Origin: Chrysomallon squamiferum
Taxonomy: Eukaryota > Mollusca > Gastropoda > Neomphalida > Peltospiridae
Assembly: GCA_012295275.1 (NCBI GenBank)
Contig: CM022667.1
Coordinates: forward strand, 21,270,667-21,334,666
Direction: 5' to 3'
Length of the DNA stretch: 64,000 nt
Below the pieces are notes generated by a model that saw only the letters and a program-made list of their open reading frames with translations, ran no database searches and was not told the origin of the DNA. A program made the position numbers and the translations under genes. Shown one piece after another: positions 13,703 through 56,900 of the stretch; position 1 is the first letter of the stretch, and each line of letters opens with the position of its first letter.

Positions 13703-16700
13703 ATGTCAGTAATACATAAAGCGTTTGAATCTGTTGAAGGCATCTTCTTTGTACTTGTAAGCATTTTAATATATAACATTCTTACAAGACGAAATAAATG
13801 AATTAGTTACTTAAAGAATGAAGAAAATATTCTCTTTTTTTAGTATATTTTATAATTAAATGAATGTGATGATAGTGATGATGATGATGATGATGATGAT
13901 TACTATTATTAAAATAATGGTTTGTCAGATAGTGTTTGTAATATTTTCTAGGTCAACTGGTATGATCTGTATGTGTATTCATCTCTACAGAAGTTCTTGT
14001 GGCCAGTAGTGGAACAGATTCCACGATGTGCAGAACTCGGAGGACGGAAGTACACGTGTTTCACAGCTAATGTAGTGTCATGGGCGAGAACGTTCTTGGT
14101 CATCCTAATTGCATTCTGCCTCAAGTAAGTTAGATAGTAATGAAAAGAAGTGAAGTATATACTTCATGGCTGAATAATAAAAGCAACATATTTCATGATC
14201 ATGAAACCTTTACTAATAATGGGTGAAAAAAATAGAGCAAAATTTATATGGGTGAATAAGTGTACACAGCTTTATTGATAGCATTTGTCATCTAAAAATA
14301 ATAATGTATCCTGACTGCATTGCAAATATGTTTATCTTCAAAGCAAATATATAATTCAATATTTGGTAATGAAAATTATTTATTTTAATAAGATAAATAA
14401 AATAAAATGAAGTCTGGGTTGTTTTCATTATCAGATACACTGCCTGCTGGACAGCATTCCTGCTCGTCCTGTTTCATGATTTTCTTGATCATCTTGATGG
14501 AATAGTTGCTAAGGTTCAGAGACAGAAGTATGGACCAATAGATGATCCACTACTGGGTGGATTCATGGATGCATTCTGTGACAAGGTTGGAAATCTTTAA
14601 AAGTTAAATTGTTACCCATGACAATGGTTTCTTCTGGTTTGTATGTGTTTTTTCATGAAAGCAAAGCAAAACAAAATGTCTTTATATTTTCAGATTGTAA
14701 ATGTTCTTGCTCTCTGGAGTATTGTCATGGTGACTAATTTCTCATTACTCTCATGGTTACAAACTTTGGTTTTTTTAAGTCTTTGTGCAACCGTCATGGC
14801 ATATGAATTTATTCTGGGTGTCATCAGAGTTCAGGATTACTTCACAGCTTATTATTCTAGGTAAATGAACAAATGTTAAGTGGGTTCTATTACTAATGGA
14901 AGGTATATGAAATTTCTATAGTAATTATAATTATAATTTGAGAAACTTCTTCCACTCCATATAGTAGTATATGGGACTGAGTATGATCATAACAACAATC
15001 CTAATACTAATACTAATGATAATGATGAACATAAAAAAGATAATTATGATGGCAATAATAAGATGTTTAATACTAAATGTTTTAATGGATATGTCTTTAT
15101 TACAGAGAATTCAAGAAAACAGATGAGGTGTTATCTGCAGTGTCTACAGCTGCTGTGATGGAAGGAAAACTCAAAGAGAAATTAGAATCTTTGGCAATTG
15201 CTTTCCTCTGTCTTGGACAAGCATCTAATAATATAATGTCCAGTTTTAGTAAGACTATTTAAAAAAAGTTTAAAAGTTAAGTTTATTTATATAAATAATT
15301 TATGAATTTTTTTTTTATTATTGATTAGGTTCTTATAATTTTAGTTCTTATTGTGATTTTTTGCTGCTGCTGTCTTTTTTGTTGAGTTTGTTAAAACTAG
15401 TTTGCTCAGAGTAAATGCTTCTATATACTGATATATTAGTTAATAAAAATATTTCCAGTTGCTTGTTTACACATGATATCACAACCTTTGGTGATGTGGG
15501 CTATAAAACATTAGTGAACTGAATAATTTGCCTCATTGTAAAAATAGAAATCAATAAAAAAGTGTTACATGAAAATTATGGAATGTGGCATTTCACAGAA
15601 ATATTTTTACTTCTGTGTTTCTGTAGGTGGAGTAACTGGTGTTGTCTGTCTTCTTCTGTCTGTTCGTTTGGCTCATTCAAGTCTACAACAAAAACTGTCA
15701 GCAAGGAAAAAACAAGAACAATTCAAATGTAAACAAACATCATCTGAAGAGAAACATCCTAGAACAGACATCAGCAAAATAAATAAAAGTTCTGAAAAGA
15801 AAATGTATGTACTGAAAATATGATATTAAACTTCAAAATTGGGATAATGGAATATGCACATGCACATGTATATGCACATATACACATGCATGCATATGTG
15901 AACACACACATAAAGATATATACATTATAACAATAACTTGTGAGTTTGTAAAGTTTCAAGGCATTTTTTAAATTATCTTTTGGGAACTGATCTGACATGA
16001 TCAATATGTAATTCCCAAACTGTTCTATTTTTGTAGGAGAAGATTATAATGAAGTGTGTTGCTGTGCAAGTAGATACTGTAACACAACCTGACAACGATA
16101 ACAGAAGGTACACAAAAACTGAACAGTTTAATTTTAATTTTAATTTATTTCCTTTTCAGTTCAGATTAATAAACAAAATTTTAACATTTGCTCAAGATAT
16201 CTTTTTAAAAGTATTATTAAAAATCTGTTAATAGTGAATACCATCCAGTTCAGTTCTGTTAGATTGTCAAGTTTAATGAAGAAATATACTAACAAAGATT
16301 TCAATAAATAAAATTTTCATTACCAGACAGTCTGTAGACAAATTTGAGATGAGAACCCATCATCGACGTCTGTCATTACCTCTCACCCATCTGGATGGAC
16401 GTGTGGATAAAGTGTACACTGTTGGATGTTTTGATCTCTTCCATCAAGGCCACATTAAGTTATTACAGAGAATGAAAGCCTTGGGAAAACAGGTACGTAA
16501 CTAAAGAACTTTGAAAAACAGTTATTTATTTAACAAGAAAACATTCATATCTGACTGTTTATTACTGATACAGAAATTGATCAGAATCAATATTTAAGAA
16601 AAGTACCTTAGTTTTGTAAAATAAAAATAAAATAAACAGATTAAGTAAAAGATTCATCTATTAAATAAATTAATTGTGTATATAATTTCAACACTATAAC

Positions 16701-18172
16701 AAAATGTAAAATGTATGTAACTAATATTAAATTTTAAGTCCAGTGAGAAATTTCTTAGTTACAAGTACCACTGCATGAACATAAGCGCTTTATACTATTT
16801 AACAAGACAGAAGTATTAATTTTAATAATGTTTTAGTTTTACTGAATGCAGAGATTAATCAGTTTAATGAACAGACAGCCCATAGACAAACAAATAAATA
16901 AAAATATACTGTTGTCTCATGACATATTCAGTCAGACTTCTTTATAATGTCCCATAGATAAGAGATGAGTGTTTTTACAGGTAGTTGTAGGAGTTCATGA
17001 TAGTCGCAGCATCTATGATCTAAAGAAACGTGTTCCTGTTGACAACACAGAACAGAGGATGATTAATGTGAAGAGATATGCTGATGTTGTAAGCAGTCAA
17101 TTATATAAAATACATTAAATTAATTTGTGGTGTCAAAAAAGATGTTTTTATTTTGGAAGTAAAATAAAGCAATGTAAATATTAGAAAATCAATATAACAA
17201 AACAAAAAGCACTTCTGAAGTAATTTTGAAGTAATAGAGGTAACAGAATGACTAATTCTTATTTTTTATAATAGACACACATGCACACACACACACTCAC
17301 CCAAACCCATACACAGAACCACATCCGCCTGTTATATAAACAACAACACACACACACACACACACCAGTAAAGAAAAAACAAATAAATAAGAAACCATTT
17401 TATAATTATAAGTTTGCATTACAATAGAAACAACATTCACATGATTCTTCTAATTACTTTGTAATGTGAAAAAATGGAACAATTCTGTAAATCTAAAAGA
17501 AATCTTAATTTTAAATAACCAAAAAAAAATTAAAAATTAAAATTATATTTAAGATTCCAAAAGAAATATAAAAGAAAAATGACATGATTTGGAAACAAAT
17601 ACATTGTATTTTATTTGAGTTTAAATTTAAAATGAAATGAAGGAATAACAGTATTTTGCTGATGTAATTCTCAAATACAGTTGTCTGTAAACTGAATATT
17701 CATGACACAACTGCCAATAAAATAAAACATTTTAAAGATAATGAAGGGGAACTGATTTACTTCACCACCAAGTTAAAATATCAACCATGAAAAATACTTT
17801 ATCATACCTTTTTATGATAAATTTTAATCATTTATTAAGGAAGCAAAAAAAAACAACAAAAAAAACATAAAGACAATTTCAGCTGTTAATGAATTCACAC
17901 AATAAATCTTGTTATCTCAGGTTTTCTGTGTGGCTGGGACAGATCCGACAAACTTCATCCACTGTATCTTTAACAAGACGGATGACGATACAGCTCTGTA
18001 TATCCGTGGAAATGACATGGAGAATTTTCCAGCCAGAGAGCTGTGTGAGTCATTGATGTCAGTTAAATTTCTGCCATACACAGAGGGTGTTTCTTCTACC
18101 AAGTTACGTAAAGATTTGTACAAAGCTGGGAAACTTGAATCTGGGTCTGATGATATTTCTCTTTTTTACTAA
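13703..18172 (+). CDS. CDP-alcohol phosphotransferase fused to a cytidylyltransferase
   Basis: Nine exons join in phase: 13703-13756, 13952-14124, 14435-14585, 14694-14860, 15106-15248, 15627-15804, 16327-16492, 16981-17088, 17921-18172, giving 463 aa. The N-terminal half is a multi-span membrane domain with the CDP-alcohol phosphotransferase signature: D94, D97-G98, A101-K102, then G117, D121 and D125. This fits D(x)2DG(x)2AR(x)8-16G(x)3D(x)3D except for Lys in place of Arg; the longer spacing resembles ceramide phosphoethanolamine synthases. Hydrophobic segments follow near 127-147, 152-169, 211-219 and 231-242. After a charged linker the C-terminal half is a CCT/ECT-type cytidylyltransferase: GCFDLFHQGH (322-331), RYADV, and VSSTKLR (437-443) in place of the usual ISTT-type motif. 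Predicted role: activate a phospho-alcohol with CTP and pass the head group to a lipid. Substrate and acceptor are unknown. Optional exon 16037-16107 would give 488 aa. Confidence 0.88.
16037..16107 (+). other. Optional linker exon of the fusion gene
   Basis: A 71-nt segment with a good acceptor (TTTTTGTAG) and donor (AG followed by GTACAC). Reading the 24-residue linker needs the weak donor GTACTG at 15809. With the strong donor GTATGT at 15805 its inclusion gives a TAA at 16047-16049, ending the protein before the cytidylyltransferase. Direct joining of 15804 to 16327 is in frame, so the main model skips this segment. Confidence 0.4.
16888..16955 (+). repeat. Dispersed repeat copy A, pogo-like end
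   Basis: About 68 bp that closely match 18736-18800. The last part begins CAGTCAGACTTCTTTATAA (16929), resembling the CAGTCAAACCTC-type ends of pogo/Tigger elements. It lies in a fusion-gene intron, 25 bp before the exon at 16981. Confidence 0.5.
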
Positions 18173-34200: not shown

Positions 34201-36964
34201 TTCAAAAGACAACAACAGCATTGTAAGTTCAGTTCATAGTTTAATATCAGCTTGACAGTAATTATAATCAATGTTCAGTGCAGTTACTACATACTAATCA
34301 GATCAAAACAGAAAACTAGCCATACACTCATTTGTCTAACAATATCTTACAGACAAATTTTATATAAGATATATGTATTTTTATATATGTCACAGTAAAC
34401 ATATTTTTTCATAAATGTTTTAGCACTGAAGTTATCAGGAATATTTTAATAAAAATGAGAAAGATTATAAAAATAATTATATTAAAATAAAAATGTAATA
34501 TTAATAGAAAACAAAATCAGAAAAGAGGAACTACAAAATTTCTAAAATAAAAAGACAAAAATAAAAACCCACCTTGAGTGTCTTTTATGAATTTTTTGTT
34601 TCTGCTTTTATTTTATTATTAATATTTGTTTTTTTCTTCTTAAATCAGAAAATTAGGTTATTTATTTTCTTGTTCTTAATCTACATATTTATAACAAAGA
34701 AAATGGAGGCAATTTTCAGTAAATTCTAAAACACTTTCTGATTATGTTAGAGAAGATGAGTATGTTAATGACTGAAATCACCTATCATCTGTCATATGGT
34801 TAAATAAAAGGAAGTTTTACAATGCTCAAGAAATGCAGAACACATTTTTCTTTTGGTAGTTTTCTAAGCACATCTTCTAACAAACATAATATCAGTTGTG
34901 TTAAAGTATTTTGTCGTTTTGCTTAAAATTAAAAAAATAAACATAATAATATTATTAACAATAATATAAATGACATGTAAGCAAAAGAATTTTGGTTCAT
35001 TGTTTAAAATCTGGCAGAAAATATAGACTAATGCAGATATTTAGAAATAAATATTTAGTAAAGAAACATTTATATAAAGATTTAGTCTCCACCAAAATAC
35101 TTCTAATTAACTATAAGATTTCAAATGAGAAACTCACCCATTGATACATGCCCAAGAGTGACAGCTGCTTCCACTCTGATCATCTCATTAGCTGAATGGA
35201 TCATCAGTGCTACAAGATACTTAACACCCTGAGAAGATGAAATTGTCATCTGATTCTTGTAATGAGGAACATTTCCCACAGCCACACAGAGATACCTCAG
35301 TGTCCGAATAACACTCAGTCCTATATAGTCTTTGTCAGACTTCAGTTGCCTTACCAAAGGATGAATTCCATTAGCTTGAGATATCTGCGTCTGCTGGTTC
35401 ACTGGTCCTTGAGCCAGAACACCAAGAGCTTCAGATGCTATGAAATGAAGGTTTTCAGAAACTGTGTTTAGAAACTCAATCAACATTCCAACACCAATAC
35501 CATTAGCCATCTCTCTTTGTTCCTCCAGGTCATCTCCTGCTAGAGCCCATAGAGCCAGAGCAGTGTTTTCCTGTAATTTTTCTGCTCTACTTTTCTTCAG
35601 CAGCTGCATCAGGAGTCGTTCAGCTCCTTTGTCAAGAATTTCTTTCTGGGTGTGAGTATTGTTTTCTGCCAGACAGTGGATAGCCTGGACAGCACTAAGC
35701 TGTAGATCTCTGTTCCTTGACTGGGACATTATAACCTAAATATCATAATTTTAAATGGTTAAAAAAAAAGATAAAATTTATAGAATTATAATAAAATCAT
35801 AGCAAAATGTTTTTATTAAAAAGTGAAACAAAAGAAGAAACTATTCAATTAGATAGAATGGAAATTATTAAATTGCTAGCAATATTATGTAATAATTATA
35901 AAATAACAAATTATACAATTAAAGAAGCACATTTAGTAATTATATCATATTTATATGAAATTTAAACATTCTTTATTTACCTGCATAATTTGAATGGTCA
36001 CGCCTTCATCTACAAAGGCTACCTGATTGTCCTTGTCACCTTTTGCTATCTTGCTGACAGCATCAACGAGTGTATGTGACAGTTGTGGTTCATTCTTCTC
36101 AAACAATGTTACAATTGTACTGATGCAGCCCTGGGCACTACCAATTGCTTTCTGATGATGTGAACCAGCAGCAGCAATGTTTCCCAGGGCTTCAACAGCC
36201 TGTTCAAGAACATCATGGTCATGAAATGTCTGCATAACCTTCAGCAAGCCAGCAATGGCCTGATTCTGACTCTCAATCTCAGCATAATCTTTGTTAGTAG
36301 CTAGGTGTTTAAGTATTTCAGCTGATAGCTGCACTGTGTACTTGTCCTGTGATTTGAGAAGTTTTATGAATGCAGGGATTCCTCCACTACTCACTAACTG
36401 TTCCTGAACTTCTTCTTCACCCAGAATATTAATCAGTGTCTCAAAAGAAGGATGTTTACAGTGTTCTGCAATGTTGGCTTTTGCCACTTTAACAATAACT
36501 GGAACCCCACCATGGCTGACAACATTTTTCCAGTTTGGATTAACACCTTCAGAAGATGGGTCAGTTAAGGTTCTTAAACATCTACCAGCATTTTCCACCT
36601 CATTTTCAATGTCTGAAGATAACAATTTCAGCAGGTTTTTCCACACTGGAAGTTTCTCGTGATTCTTTTCTATGAAATAGTTTAGGAGACTAATAAACTG
36701 ATGCAAGGCACTGATTTCAACTGCACCATGATTTTGACTATTTGTGGCATCAATTTTAGCTCCAAGTCGAAGAAGACAGTCAACAGTCTGTACACTTCCA
36801 CTATCGACAGCCAGTAAAAATGGGGTGGAGTGAAGATCATCCTGAGTTTCAAGTTCAAGCTGTTCATGATCAGATTCCACAAATTTTTCAATTGATTTGA
36901 TGAAACCACGGAATGTGGCCTGGTGTATGTGAGCCCAGCCACGTTCATCAAATTCTTGCATCAT
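28286..36964 (-). CDS. ANKAR: Ankyrin and armadillo repeat-containing protein (ANKAR-like)
   Basis: Seven coding exons read right to left in phase: 36964-35981, 35735-35138, 31618-31374, 30238-30082, 29802-29655, 29024-28905, 28502-28286, giving 822 aa. The N-terminal ~100 residues contain ankyrin-type sequence (HSTPFLLAVDSGSVQTVDCL, LRLGAKIDA). Residues of about 100-700 are tandem armadillo repeats, for example GGVPVIVKVAK, GGIPAFIKLLKSQDKY, EQAVEALGNIAAAG, LQENTALALWALAG and GIHPLVRQLKSDKDYIGLS. The last exon encodes a Ser-rich, probably disordered tail. Vertebrate ANKAR is much longer (about 1,400 aa), with extra N-terminal sequence; here the start is supported by two adjacent Met codons and an upstream acceptor of a 5' UTR exon, so a shorter form is likely. 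An alternative is that further coding exons lie upstream of 37013. Biochemical role is poorly known for the family. Confidence 0.88.
31619..35137 (-). other. Large intron of the ANKAR-like gene
   Basis: A 3.5-kb intron. Two copies of a short dispersed repeat (ACCAGCATGAAGAGACCAA) occur near 33055 and 33854, each preceded by similar TG-rich sequence. A CA-rich tract lies near 33569-33609. No coding exon was recognised, and short open frames here lack family resemblance. Confidence 0.45.
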
Positions 36965-37013
36965 ACTGACAGTAATAAATTTTACCTCTTCAGTTCACAT
37001 AACCCATTTTTTC
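36965..37013 (-). promoter_or_regulatory. 5' UTR exon segment with a short uORF, ANKAR-like gene
   Basis: On the minus strand a TTTCAG acceptor at about 37013 precedes a leader with an upstream ATG, a five-codon frame and a TGA, then the ATG ATG start of the protein. The uORF could dampen translation. Its 21-bp core recurs upstream at 40532-40552. Confidence 0.4.
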
Positions 37014-53900: not shown

Positions 53901-56900
53901 TAATTTGCACTTAAGAAGTTTGGCAGATACAGCAATCATTCTGTTGAGAAAAATATATTTTTATATTTTCAGTCCTCAACCTAAAGCATCTAGAAGCAGA
54001 AGAGCACCTAAACTTGATTCTCCTCCAAGACAATCAAGCAGACTTTCATCTAGACAGAGAGCAACAAAGAATCGTAAATCACCTTCTCCTTCATCTGATT
54101 CTTCAAGATCTAAATCAGCACATTCAGATTTGAGTAATGATGACACTGAAGAAGAAGTGATGGAATCACCAACCAGAGGCCGTGGTAGAGGCAGAGGAAG
54201 AGGCCGTGGACGAGGGCGAGGAAAGGCAAAAGCAAAGCAGCATGTTTCATCAGATGATTCCAATTCTCCCCTTGCTGAAAAAGTTTGTAAATGCTTTCCA
54301 TCAGTAGTTTCACAAAAATCATACGTGTTCAGTCATTAATGTTTAATCAGTAAAATTCGGAACATGGTATTGAAAAAAAATAGCAGTTTTGAAAGATTCC
54401 TTGGTTGTACGTAAAACTGTTGCTCATACAAAATCCAAAATTAGACACAAGATGGAATACATTTTTAACCGAGCTTGTTTAAAAAAAAACCTTCATTGTT
54501 TCAGGCTCTGAATAAATGTAGTGTGTCACAGGAGGATATCTTTAGCATAAAAAGTTTTAATTATTTGTTTGTAAGGTAACAAACAAGTCCCAGCAAAAAG
54601 AAAACCGAACAACTGTTAGTCTTTTCTTCTCTGCAGATGTATTTACTTTCTAAACCATGAATCTAGTAGTTGAGTATCTTGGTTTTTAACGTCTTTAGTA
54701 ATAAGATCATATTCAGTTTTTTGCCATGTAATTTGTGGGAGTTTTAAACTCCTAAAACTGCTTTAAAAAGTATTTCATAAAAACATTTAATTAATTTTTA
54801 GGTAGTATTGGCAAGTTCTAAATTACATTTCTTGTCTTTCTAAAAGATATTGTCATTTATGACTTTGTTGGGGTGTTGTATATATTTTACAATCATTAAT
54901 ATTATGAACATAGTGTTTATTCATTTGTAGGAACCAGTGCCTATACATAAATCAACCAGAAGTAGACGTTCCAGTGAAAAACAAGAGAGCATGAAAGTGG
55001 ATATAGAGGAAACTAAAATAAAAAATGAATTACCTAGTCGAAGGGCATCAGGTCATAAAGAGAAGAAATCATCTGTCACAGAAAAGGAGGTGCCAAAGGA
55101 AATGAAAAGTTCAGGTGATGCTAAAGATGTTTCTATACCTCATGAAGAAACCACTGATATTGCCAAAAAGAGATTGTCTGATTTGAAAGCAAAACGGCCA
55201 CAGTCTTCAGAAGAACAAACTGACACAAAAGACAAATCATCTTTCCAGACAGAAGAGATATCACTGACCAAAATTAATTCTGAAATGACAGCAACAGAGT
55301 CATTATCAGAAAAACTACAGACAGAAACTAAATCAGACTCCAAAAAAACCATTTTACCTGAAGTAAAAGGTAAGGCAGCTAATTATGAAACAGATAAAAA
55401 ATCATTGCTATCAGAAGAGACTGAAGAAAATATTAAGGCAGAAAACGAAAGTAATACACCAACTCCTATAGAAATTCCTAATGAAAGCAGTGTTTATACA
55501 GGTAAAGAAAAAATATCTTCACCGAAAAGGGATGAAGAAATGAAGATAGATAATAAGGAGAAAGGATCACCTATGGAGATATGTGATGAAACTGATACAA
55601 ACATTAAAACAAATGTATTGATCAATAAAGAAGAAACAAAAGTTACAGAATCTGAAGCTGTAGAAAAGAAAGAAGTGTTGGAAGTGAAACAGAAAAAGTC
55701 TGTTGAATCACTGAAAAGTAGTGAAAAGCAGACAGTTTCAGAATTACCTGAACAAGCATTGGCTGTTGAAAGTGAAATGCCAGTTGTGGAAGGGGAACAA
55801 AAAAATGAAACAAATTTATCACAAGATGAGAGCTCTGTGAAACTGCTAAAGCCTACAGCATCATATAGTGAGGTTTCAGATGAAACTTCAAAACAGGATT
55901 CTGAAACCAGTTTGGGGAAAAAAGTAACTAGAAAAATTCGCAGGTGGAATGCACCAAAAGTAGAAAAAATGCCAAGTGAAAAAATTGAAAAAGAAGAAAT
56001 TGCTGAAGGTGCACCGTCTCCAAAGAAGGCTAGATGTTGGTCTTTTAGTGCAGAGAAAGTTGGTGATTCTAAATCCGATTCCAAAATCGAAGATATTGAA
56101 ACAAATCCAGAAGAAAGAGAAATGGATGTTGGACAGGCTCATTCAGTACATAAAGAGGAAAGAGAGGAAAAACAGTTAACACATGAAGTAGATAAAGAAT
56201 CATTACCACAAATGGAGAAAGACTTGACACATCAAAAGGAGAGTAAGACAGTACCTCCAGAGGAGGTTACATTAACACAACAGGAAAATAAGCTGATACA
56301 CCAAAAGGAGAGTAAGAATTCAAATCAACAGGAATTTAAAAATGCAAACCAGGAGGAAGGTACGAATACACACCCAGAAGAGAGTAAGGATACACACCCT
56401 GAAGAGTGTAAGGATACACACCCCGAAGAGAGTAAGGATACACACCTGGAAGAAAGTAAGGATACACATCCAGAAGAGAGTAAGGATAGACAGCCAAAAG
56501 AGAGTAAGGATACACATCGGGAAGAGAGTAAGGATACACACCCAGAAGAAAGTAAGGATACACATCCAGAAGAGAGTAAGGATAGACAGCCAAAAGAGAG
56601 TAAAGATACACACCCAAAGGAGAGTAAGGATTCACACCCGGAAGAGAGTAAGGATTCACACCCGGAAGAGAGTAAGGATTCACACCCGGAAGAGAGTAAG
56701 GATACACCCCTGGAAGAAAGTAAGGATACACCCCAGGAAGAGAGTAAGGATACACCCCTGGAAGAAAGTAAGGATACACCCCAGGAAGAGAGTAAGGATA
56801 CACACCCAGAAGAGAGTATGGATACACACTTAGAGAAGAGTAACGATATACATCGGGAAAAGAAGAAGAATATCCATCAGGAGGAGAGTAAGGATATACA

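Follow-up and report, generated by a model that had tools for sequence, protein, structure and literature searches.

Among known systems, the archaeal proteins IPCT-DIPPS and AF2299 (PDB 4mnd, 4o6m) carry a nucleotidyltransferase domain of another type than CCT in front, ahead of a membrane half (matched at 296-489 in 4mnd), whereas the protein from Chrysomallon squamiferum described here ends with a cytidylyltransferase of the CCT type. The archaeal order, with the nucleotidyltransferase N-terminal to the membrane half, is opposite to that of the Chrysomallon protein and of 89 of the best 120 of 126 relatives. In Fom1 (PDB 5x3d) and in three stretches from a viral collection (L041-L043), a CCT-type cytidylyltransferase is fused to PEP mutase and not, as here, to a phosphotransferase; in register, the motif-I position occupied by Asp in PCYT2 is moreover Gly in Fom1, not Val. 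Human PCYT2 is the best PDB sequence match of the cytidylyltransferase half, but two of its stretches match and it lacks a membrane half, whereas the Chrysomallon protein combines one such stretch with a membrane half, and its family replaces the PCYT2 Asp and Arg with Val/Ile and Tyr.

On the transferase side, Drosophila CPES is likewise a CDP-alcohol phosphotransferase, with a published (A/Y)R motif and a spacer of 8-16 residues (PMC9550178, partial text). The Chrysomallon spacer of 14 falls within this range, but its motif reads A-K, and CPES is a Golgi-lumen enzyme whereas the active site here is predicted from the charge pattern to be cytosolic. No protein named CPES occurs among the best 120 of 191 relatives or among the fold matches, which is no test of kinship. 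PntC resembles the present case in the proposed reaction, CTP plus 2-aminoethylphosphonate (AEP). It is LicC-like, and a motif scan for the GXG(T/S)R consensus of that family (PMC6697681, partial text) found no match in the Chrysomallon protein.

Gene structure and predicted topology

The window, a 64,000-nt stretch of Chrysomallon squamiferum DNA, contains the gene at 13703-18172 on the + strand (Table 1). The initial annotation implied nine exons, which have GT/AG borders and join into a single frame of 463 aa, and it proposed that a CDP-alcohol phosphotransferase and a cytidylyltransferase are joined in one polypeptide. The joining is borne out, since both halves lie in one spliced frame and both exceed their Pfam cut-offs in the 463-aa form: CDP-OH_P_transf (PF01066) matches residues 56-216 at 28.5 bits against a cut-off of 22 (E 2.3e-6; 31.8 bits in the relative P0001), and CTP_transf_like (PF01467) matches residues 319-444 at 46.3 bits against 21 (E 6.1e-12), as a single stretch with a single HxGH. 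The diagnostic residues D94, D97, A101, K102, G117, D121 and D125, together with GCFDLFHQGH at 322 and VSSTKLR at 437, are positioned as had been claimed. The Asp set of the pattern D(x)2DG(x)2A...G(x)3D(x)3D is complete from D94 to D125, with K in place of the usual R.

The exon structure stood only in part: the nine exons are in frame, but a further exon was overlooked and a later donor is preferred for exon 6. With these changes the frame is kept and encodes 488 aa, scoring 760.7 bits against 741.6 for the shorter form in a profile of 13 orthologues, and the VQVD stretch of the added exon is found again in gastropod relatives. The 488-aa form is the better fit to orthologues; the 463-aa form is also in frame, and therefore both could exist as isoforms.

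Table 1. Exons of the fusion gene in the window
Feature	Position	Strand	Basis
Exon 1: start codon ATG, N-terminal helix; donor gtaagc, in frame	13703..13756	+	splicing
Exon 2: juxtamembrane helix and first membrane helix	13952..14124	+	splicing; helix borders by homology to P0001 model
Exon 3: CDP-alcohol phosphotransferase motif D94..D125	14435..14585	+	splicing, Pfam, motif
Exon 4: membrane helices 3 and 4	14694..14860	+	splicing; helix borders by homology (P0001 model)
Exon 5: family-conserved EGKLKEKLES block and fifth membrane helix	15106..15248	+	splicing, relatives, P0001 model
Exon 6: membrane helix 6 and a tail of basic residues; donor after 15808 preferred to that of the initial annotation after 15804	15627..15808	+	splicing, 13-orthologue profile	
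Overlooked exon: linker, VAVQVD; in frame with donor 15808, stop with donor 15804	16037..16107	+	splicing; +19 bits, 13-orthologue profile
Exon with GCFDLFHQGH (HxGH), cytidylyltransferase half	16327..16492	+	splicing, Pfam
Exon with LKKR lysines, cytidylyltransferase half	16981..17088	+	splicing
Last exon: RGND and PYTEGVSST motifs, stop codon	17921..18172	+	splicing, Pfam, motif

In a structure model of P0001, two domains are predicted with confidence and the linker is loose, and six membrane helices are predicted for the window protein. Across 45 relatives, the mean number of K+R is 2.6, 6.4 and 6.4 in the loops and tail on the active-site side versus 1.0, 0.3 and 0.3 on the opposite side, although the stretches of the first set also contain more residues (18-29 versus 8-13). 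This pattern predicts that the C-terminus and the active-site loop share one side, likely the cytosolic one, with both active sites at the cytosolic face; on this prediction, the earlier concern that they would lie on opposite faces of the membrane would fall away.

Spread and domain order of the fusion

The forward order, as in the window, means that orthologues are not always separate genes: among the matches listed, the forward fusion is present in molluscs, Lingula (brachiopod), rotifers, Branchiostoma (lancelet) and Tubulanus (ribbon worm). Most relatives have no function name in their database entries, and the catalytic patterns of both halves are retained in 62 of 69 long relatives; the phosphotransferase motif is lost in P0058, P0086, P0092 and one lancelet copy, P0062. 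Short contigs of relatives do not speak against the joining either: in three of them (P0057, P0032, P0016) the whole fusion frame leaves 91 to 157 bases to spare, not enough for introns of the size found in the window, and such contigs resemble spliced transcripts. No published report of an animal phosphotransferase-cytidylyltransferase fusion was found in the literature searched, mostly without subscription papers. The fusion is real and conserved, and uncharacterised in that literature.

A reverse order, with a different type of cytidylyltransferase, was scored by position in 9 of the best 120 of 126 relatives, including Amoebophrya. In the tree, 16 of 62 rows were scored as reverse, all within one 28-row part (93/86, not starred). 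Over all listings the reverse-type cytidylyltransferase occurs in at least 17 proteins, with the phosphotransferase motif in 17 of 17 (the order by position in all but three), and motif IV of this partner carries an Arg, as it does in GCT.

In both sequence and fold, the closest matches of the phosphotransferase half are the prokaryotic enzymes PIP synthase, PGP synthase and AF2299. A pattern-based scan of 67 prokaryotic neighbourhood stretches confirmed three loci, of which two from Magasanikbacteria (L025, L026) hold full relatives of this half and the third (L027) matches over only 36 residues. Neither PEP mutase nor cytidylyltransferase was recognised by eye among the frames listed around L025 and L026, and no relative of the phosphotransferase half was found on viral contigs; prokaryotic gene neighbourhood gave no clue to the substrate.

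Probable coupling of the halves and possible head group

The fusion is probably a make-and-use enzyme; in the reading that we tentatively prefer, a head group, most likely AEP, is activated with CTP and then transferred to a lipid alcohol. The cytidylyltransferase half would convert CTP and a phosphorus-bearing head group to a CMP-activated form, the phosphotransferase half would pass it to an alcohol such as ceramide or diacylglycerol, and the activated group might be handed over within or between protein copies. That the two activities are coupled is quite probable: both Pfam matches lie above cut-off, the joined form is conserved with its catalytic patterns, and the two opposite joinings of phosphotransferase and cytidylyltransferase point to coupled function. 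Motif loss in some members weighs on the other side. AEP itself is a plausible but tentative assignment.

The evidence for AEP begins with a PEP mutase gene, containing EDKLFPKTNS, in the same genome. Of 43 named PEP-mutase species, the fusion is listed in 15, or 18 with congeners; one of the 15, Sycon, was matched through an identifier that we take to be its own. These PEP-mutase species come from the best 120 of 6288 matches and first cluster names only, so that absences there are weak; the fusion listings cover the best 120 of 126 and the best 120 of 191, with many rows lacking an organism name. The other 25 species, without the fusion among the matches listed, comprise seven cnidarians, two limpets, Argonauta, Capsaspora, eight insects and others, and no cephalopod fusion is named in either fusion listing. 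Yet Octopus vulgaris produces ceramide aminoethylphosphonate (CAEP; PMC12335516, partial text), and a PEP mutase (P0166) is present in this species. Conversely, no PEP mutase was seen among the best 120 of 6288 for Branchiostoma, bdelloids, Tubulanus and most gastropods; the missing cephalopods and cnidarians weigh more than these absences, because full-length fusion relatives score high. In the protist Nk52 the phosphotransferase half stands by itself (P0098), and PEP mutase is found there too (P0232). Expression of phosphonopyruvate decarboxylase and of AEP transaminase is reported for bdelloids, where the fusion also occurs; their phosphonate genes are read as foreign, and a phosphonoacetaldehyde hydrolase is reported as well (PMC3499245, partial text), which fits break-down rather than synthesis. 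The PEP mutase profile supports a phosphonate head group, but is no proof of it.

The window protein has Tyr in place of the Arg of RTEGISTT, as do most forward-type proteins (Y in 93 of 103, R in 1, 9 unscored). Tyr in motif IV also occurs in Fom1 and in all four viral-collection stretches, L041-L044, where L041-L043 continue into PEP mutase and L044 is matched over the cytidylyltransferase part only. As a marker of phosphonate enzymes it was rejected, since it is also found in L051, a stretch carrying no annotation, and in L047 and L048, where the annotation shows no PEP mutase for about 4 kb to each side. In the same comparison of eight hits, L046 and L052 have Arg, as does L049 by eye, and motif IV is decayed in L045, a PEP mutase of Segatella; L050, read in a wrong frame, was left unscored. 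A supposed likeness to Fom1, Val before the motif-I Gly, was withdrawn, the two being one residue out of register; what remains is absence of the PCYT2 Asp, a position at which all 103 forward-type proteins carry Val or Ile. The 2-hydroxyethylphosphonate cytidylyltransferase of Fom1 is among the nearest folds, the closest being glycerol-3-phosphate cytidylyltransferase.

The nearest solved relatives by sequence, headed by human PCYT2, are phosphoethanolamine and glycerol-3-phosphate enzymes, which weighs against AEP. The same make-and-use enzyme might employ phosphoethanolamine, forming CDP-ethanolamine and then ceramide phosphoethanolamine or an ether lipid, which would account for the fusion not tracking every PEP-mutase animal; ceramide phosphoethanolamine is present in mussels and octopus (PMC8708635, PMC12335516, partial texts). 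This is a serious but rather unlikely option, given the single cytidylyltransferase domain and the missing PCYT2 Asp; separate CEPT-like and CCT-like exons were also recognised by eye in the genome, which suggests that the ordinary route exists alongside. Alternatively, with a different head group or acceptor, the enzyme might work with CDP-glycerol, CDP-choline, a sugar alcohol or an unknown phosphonate, comparable to archaeal inositol-lipid or solute synthesis; this would suit the closest fold, the prokaryotic affinities of the phosphotransferase half and the GCT-like Arg of the reverse-fusion partner. We judge such a product about equally unlikely, as none is named for molluscs in literature and database searches. 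The choline box of CCT contains Trp, and by eye this residue is absent at the expected place in the window protein.

Two further readings question the coupling or the protein itself. In the one, a genuine protein has a regulatory or degenerate half, and activity is confined to the membrane-held cytidylyltransferase; P0086, P0092 and the lancelet copy would fit, but both motif sets persist in the great majority of long relatives and in the window protein, making it improbable. In the other, splicing prediction has wrongly joined two adjacent genes, an ATG in the exon at 16037 being able to begin a separate protein. With the same fusion in several phyla, including whole frames on contigs too short for comparable introns, this is more improbable still.

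Possible implications for invertebrate phosphonolipids

CAEP is a main membrane sphingolipid of molluscs and cnidarians, reaching 29 mol% in mussel haemocytes (PMC9174665, partial text). The literature searched, with subscription papers mostly outside it, assigns no enzyme to the attachment of its head group. It is intriguing, if speculative, to suppose that invertebrate phosphonolipid synthesis is completed by the make-and-use fusion, its missing last step, which arose twice in opposite orders (in animals and in alveolate plankton) and was replaced by other enzymes in cephalopods and cnidarians.

The gene provides one concrete, conserved candidate for the CAEP head-group step, with donor synthesis and transfer in one chain, and the fusion would be a clean example of a substrate handed over at the membrane surface. 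If AEP is the head group, it would supply a missing piece of phosphonolipid synthesis in invertebrates; if the head group is different, it would still represent a Kennedy-type pathway within a single animal protein, joined in two opposite orders.

Gene model and domain composition

As the initial annotation had proposed, two domains lie in one polypeptide: the spliced frame of 463 aa matches the Pfam families for CDP-alcohol phosphotransferases (PF01066, residues 56-216, 28.5 bits, cut-off 22) and CCT-type cytidylyltransferases (PF01467, residues 319-444, 46.3 bits, cut-off 21). Its nine exons join in frame with GT/AG borders, but this model overlooked an extra exon, within which a stop is reached when the donor after 15804 is used. 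Against a profile of 13 orthologues, the 488-aa form containing this exon scores 760.7 bits versus 741.6 for the 463-aa form, and its extra residues include VQVD, a stretch shared with Pomacea, Littorina and the relative P0016; Haliotis has a similar one. From sequence, we take 488 aa to be the probable main form, the 463-aa form being also possible.

Exons of the fusion gene and other open frames in the window
Feature	Coordinates	Strand	Remarks
Exon	13703-13756	+	GT/AG, 463-aa frame
Exon	13952-14124	+	GT/AG, 463-aa frame
Exon	14435-14585	+	GT/AG, 463-aa frame
Exon	14694-14860	+	GT/AG, 463-aa frame
Exon	15106-15248	+	GT/AG, 463-aa frame
Exon 6	15627-15804 or 15627-15808	+	alternative donors, 463-aa or 488-aa form
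Extra exon	16037-16107	+	in frame only with exon 6 end at 15808
Exon	16327-16492	+	GT/AG, 463-aa frame
Exon	16981-17088	+	GT/AG, 463-aa frame
Exon	17921-18172	+	GT/AG, 463-aa frame
Open frame, 837 aa	54931-57444	+	24-base unit repeated ~22 times (56366-56900); no Pfam match
Open frame	35951-36994	-	matches ankyrin and armadillo repeats

Distribution and precedents of the fusion

The two halves are joined in relatives too. When 5.8 billion proteins were searched with the 463-aa form, the best 120 of 126 matches, some of them fragments, comprised 89 forward fusions (phosphotransferase half first), nine reverse fusions, eight lone phosphotransferase halves and 14 lone cytidylyltransferase halves. 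Named forward-fusion owners among the matches listed are bivalves, gastropods, a chiton, Lingula, bdelloid and monogonont rotifers, Branchiostoma and Tubulanus, joined by a calcareous sponge if the scpid-type identifier is, as we presume, Sycon ciliatum. Source labels for these matches read uncharacterized, hypothetical or unnamed, apart from a few that name a domain and two Branchiostoma rows labelled "PCYT2" (ethanolamine-phosphate cytidylyltransferase). For the 12 joined frames checked, the contig leaves 91 to 831 spare bases, which in intron-bearing animals suggests spliced transcripts.

Both halves' patterns are kept in 62 of the 69 proteins of at least 415 aa within the first 70 rows (P0066, 376 aa, excluded); the exceptions have an altered motif IV (P0002, P0003, P0005), are short with one pattern not found (P0054, P0070), or yielded no phosphotransferase motif (P0058, P0062). 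The latter two, like P0086 and P0092, are forward fusions with the cytidylyltransferase motif kept and the phosphotransferase Asp motif not found. A lone cytidylyltransferase of this type, P0120, lies beside a partial SPX-domain match under the Pfam cut-off.

The archaeal precedent mentioned in the initial annotation is borne out by IPCT-DIPPS, which, by the title of 4mnd, likewise joins a nucleotidyltransferase to a CDP-alcohol phosphotransferase. Searches of 5.39 million open-access papers listed no report of an animal fusion with a CCT-type partner and, as far as they show, this form and its mirror image are undescribed. In three viral-collection contigs (L041, L042, L043), a CCT-type cytidylyltransferase is fused to PEP mutase in a single frame.

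Candidate head group

PEP mutase catalyses the committed step of phosphonate synthesis, and its gene is present in the C. squamiferum genome (contig C7, seven tblastn pieces, EDKLFPKTNS present). Among the best 120 of 6288 matches to the Mytilus enzyme, counted by hand, 43 species are named; the fusion is listed for 15 (14 by name, Sycon by its presumed identifier) and in a congener only for three, and no fusion is listed for 25, including Octopus vulgaris and seven cnidarians. Ceramide aminoethylphosphonate (CAEP) is made, with N-methyl-CAEP, by Octopus vulgaris (PMC12335516), and CAEP is made by cnidarians as a group (PMC8708635, PMC9174665); candidate genes of the 2-aminoethylphosphonate (AEP) route are described in Acropora (PMC3640398). 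Since CAEP and PEP mutase occur in these animals without a listed fusion, it is unlikely that CAEP formation depends on the fusion alone. Bdelloids, also forward-fusion owners among the matches listed, express phosphonopyruvate decarboxylase and AEP transaminase, and PMC3499245 reads their phosphonate genes, with phosphonoacetaldehyde hydrolase, as foreign and serving phosphonate use.

The bacterial AEP cytidylyltransferase PntC, as described in PMC6697681, belongs to a different family from the fusion's cytidylyltransferase. The motif given for ceramide phosphoethanolamine synthase, D(X)2DG(X)2(A/Y)R(X)8-16G(X)3D(X)3D (PMC9550178), has R where the window protein has K. By eye, ordinary CCT-like exons (L035) and CEPT-like exons (L039, L040) also occur in the genome. 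We tentatively favour AEP as the head group; phosphoethanolamine seems less likely, and some other head group about as likely as phosphoethanolamine.

Predicted membrane topology and the reverse fusion

In the model of the relative P0001 (mean pLDDT 83.6; residues 284-334 below 50), the chain forms a long helix at the N-terminus, six further helical stretches that look membrane-spanning, and an alpha/beta domain at its end. Across 45 relatives (forward fusions, single halves, one reverse-type row), mean K+R is 2.6 in the active-site loop, 6.4 in the helix 4-5 loop and 6.4 in the C-terminal tail, versus 1.0, 0.3 and 0.3 in the remaining, outer loops; the former are longer (18, 29 and 29 residues versus 8, 11 and 13), and per residue the first outer loop resembles the active-site loop while the other two differ. 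Under the positive-inside rule, a cytosolic location is likely for both the active site and the cytidylyltransferase, contrary to the earlier concern that they might face opposite sides. An even number of membrane helices would place both termini on one side, which fits a partner at either end.

Reverse order was established by position in P0095, P0106, P0107, P0109, P0112 (with an additional EF hand), P0114, P0116, P0117 and P0119, two of these nine from Amoebophrya and the remainder unnamed sequences. Among all matches listed, 17 proteins have the cytidylyltransferase type of the reverse fusions (GT[FY]D motif I), order by position being checked for 14 (all but P0258, P0261 and P0275); all 17 keep the phosphotransferase motif and have F before the motif-I Gly, and motif IV has R in 16, with one unscored. 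For the forward type, the 103 matches listed all have V or I at that position, and motif IV has Y in 93 and R in one, nine being unscored. The predicted model of P0257 (mean pLDDT 80.5) shows the same two folds in reversed order. A tree was built from 62 rows of the phosphotransferase half, with two Magasanikbacteria rows as root. All 16 rows scored reverse fall within one 28-row part of it (93/86, not starred), though the bootstrap had not settled and the long branches do not allow safe conclusions on finer detail. A phosphotransferase family with two opposite joinings is the best evidence that it would use a CMP-activated donor made by its fused partner.
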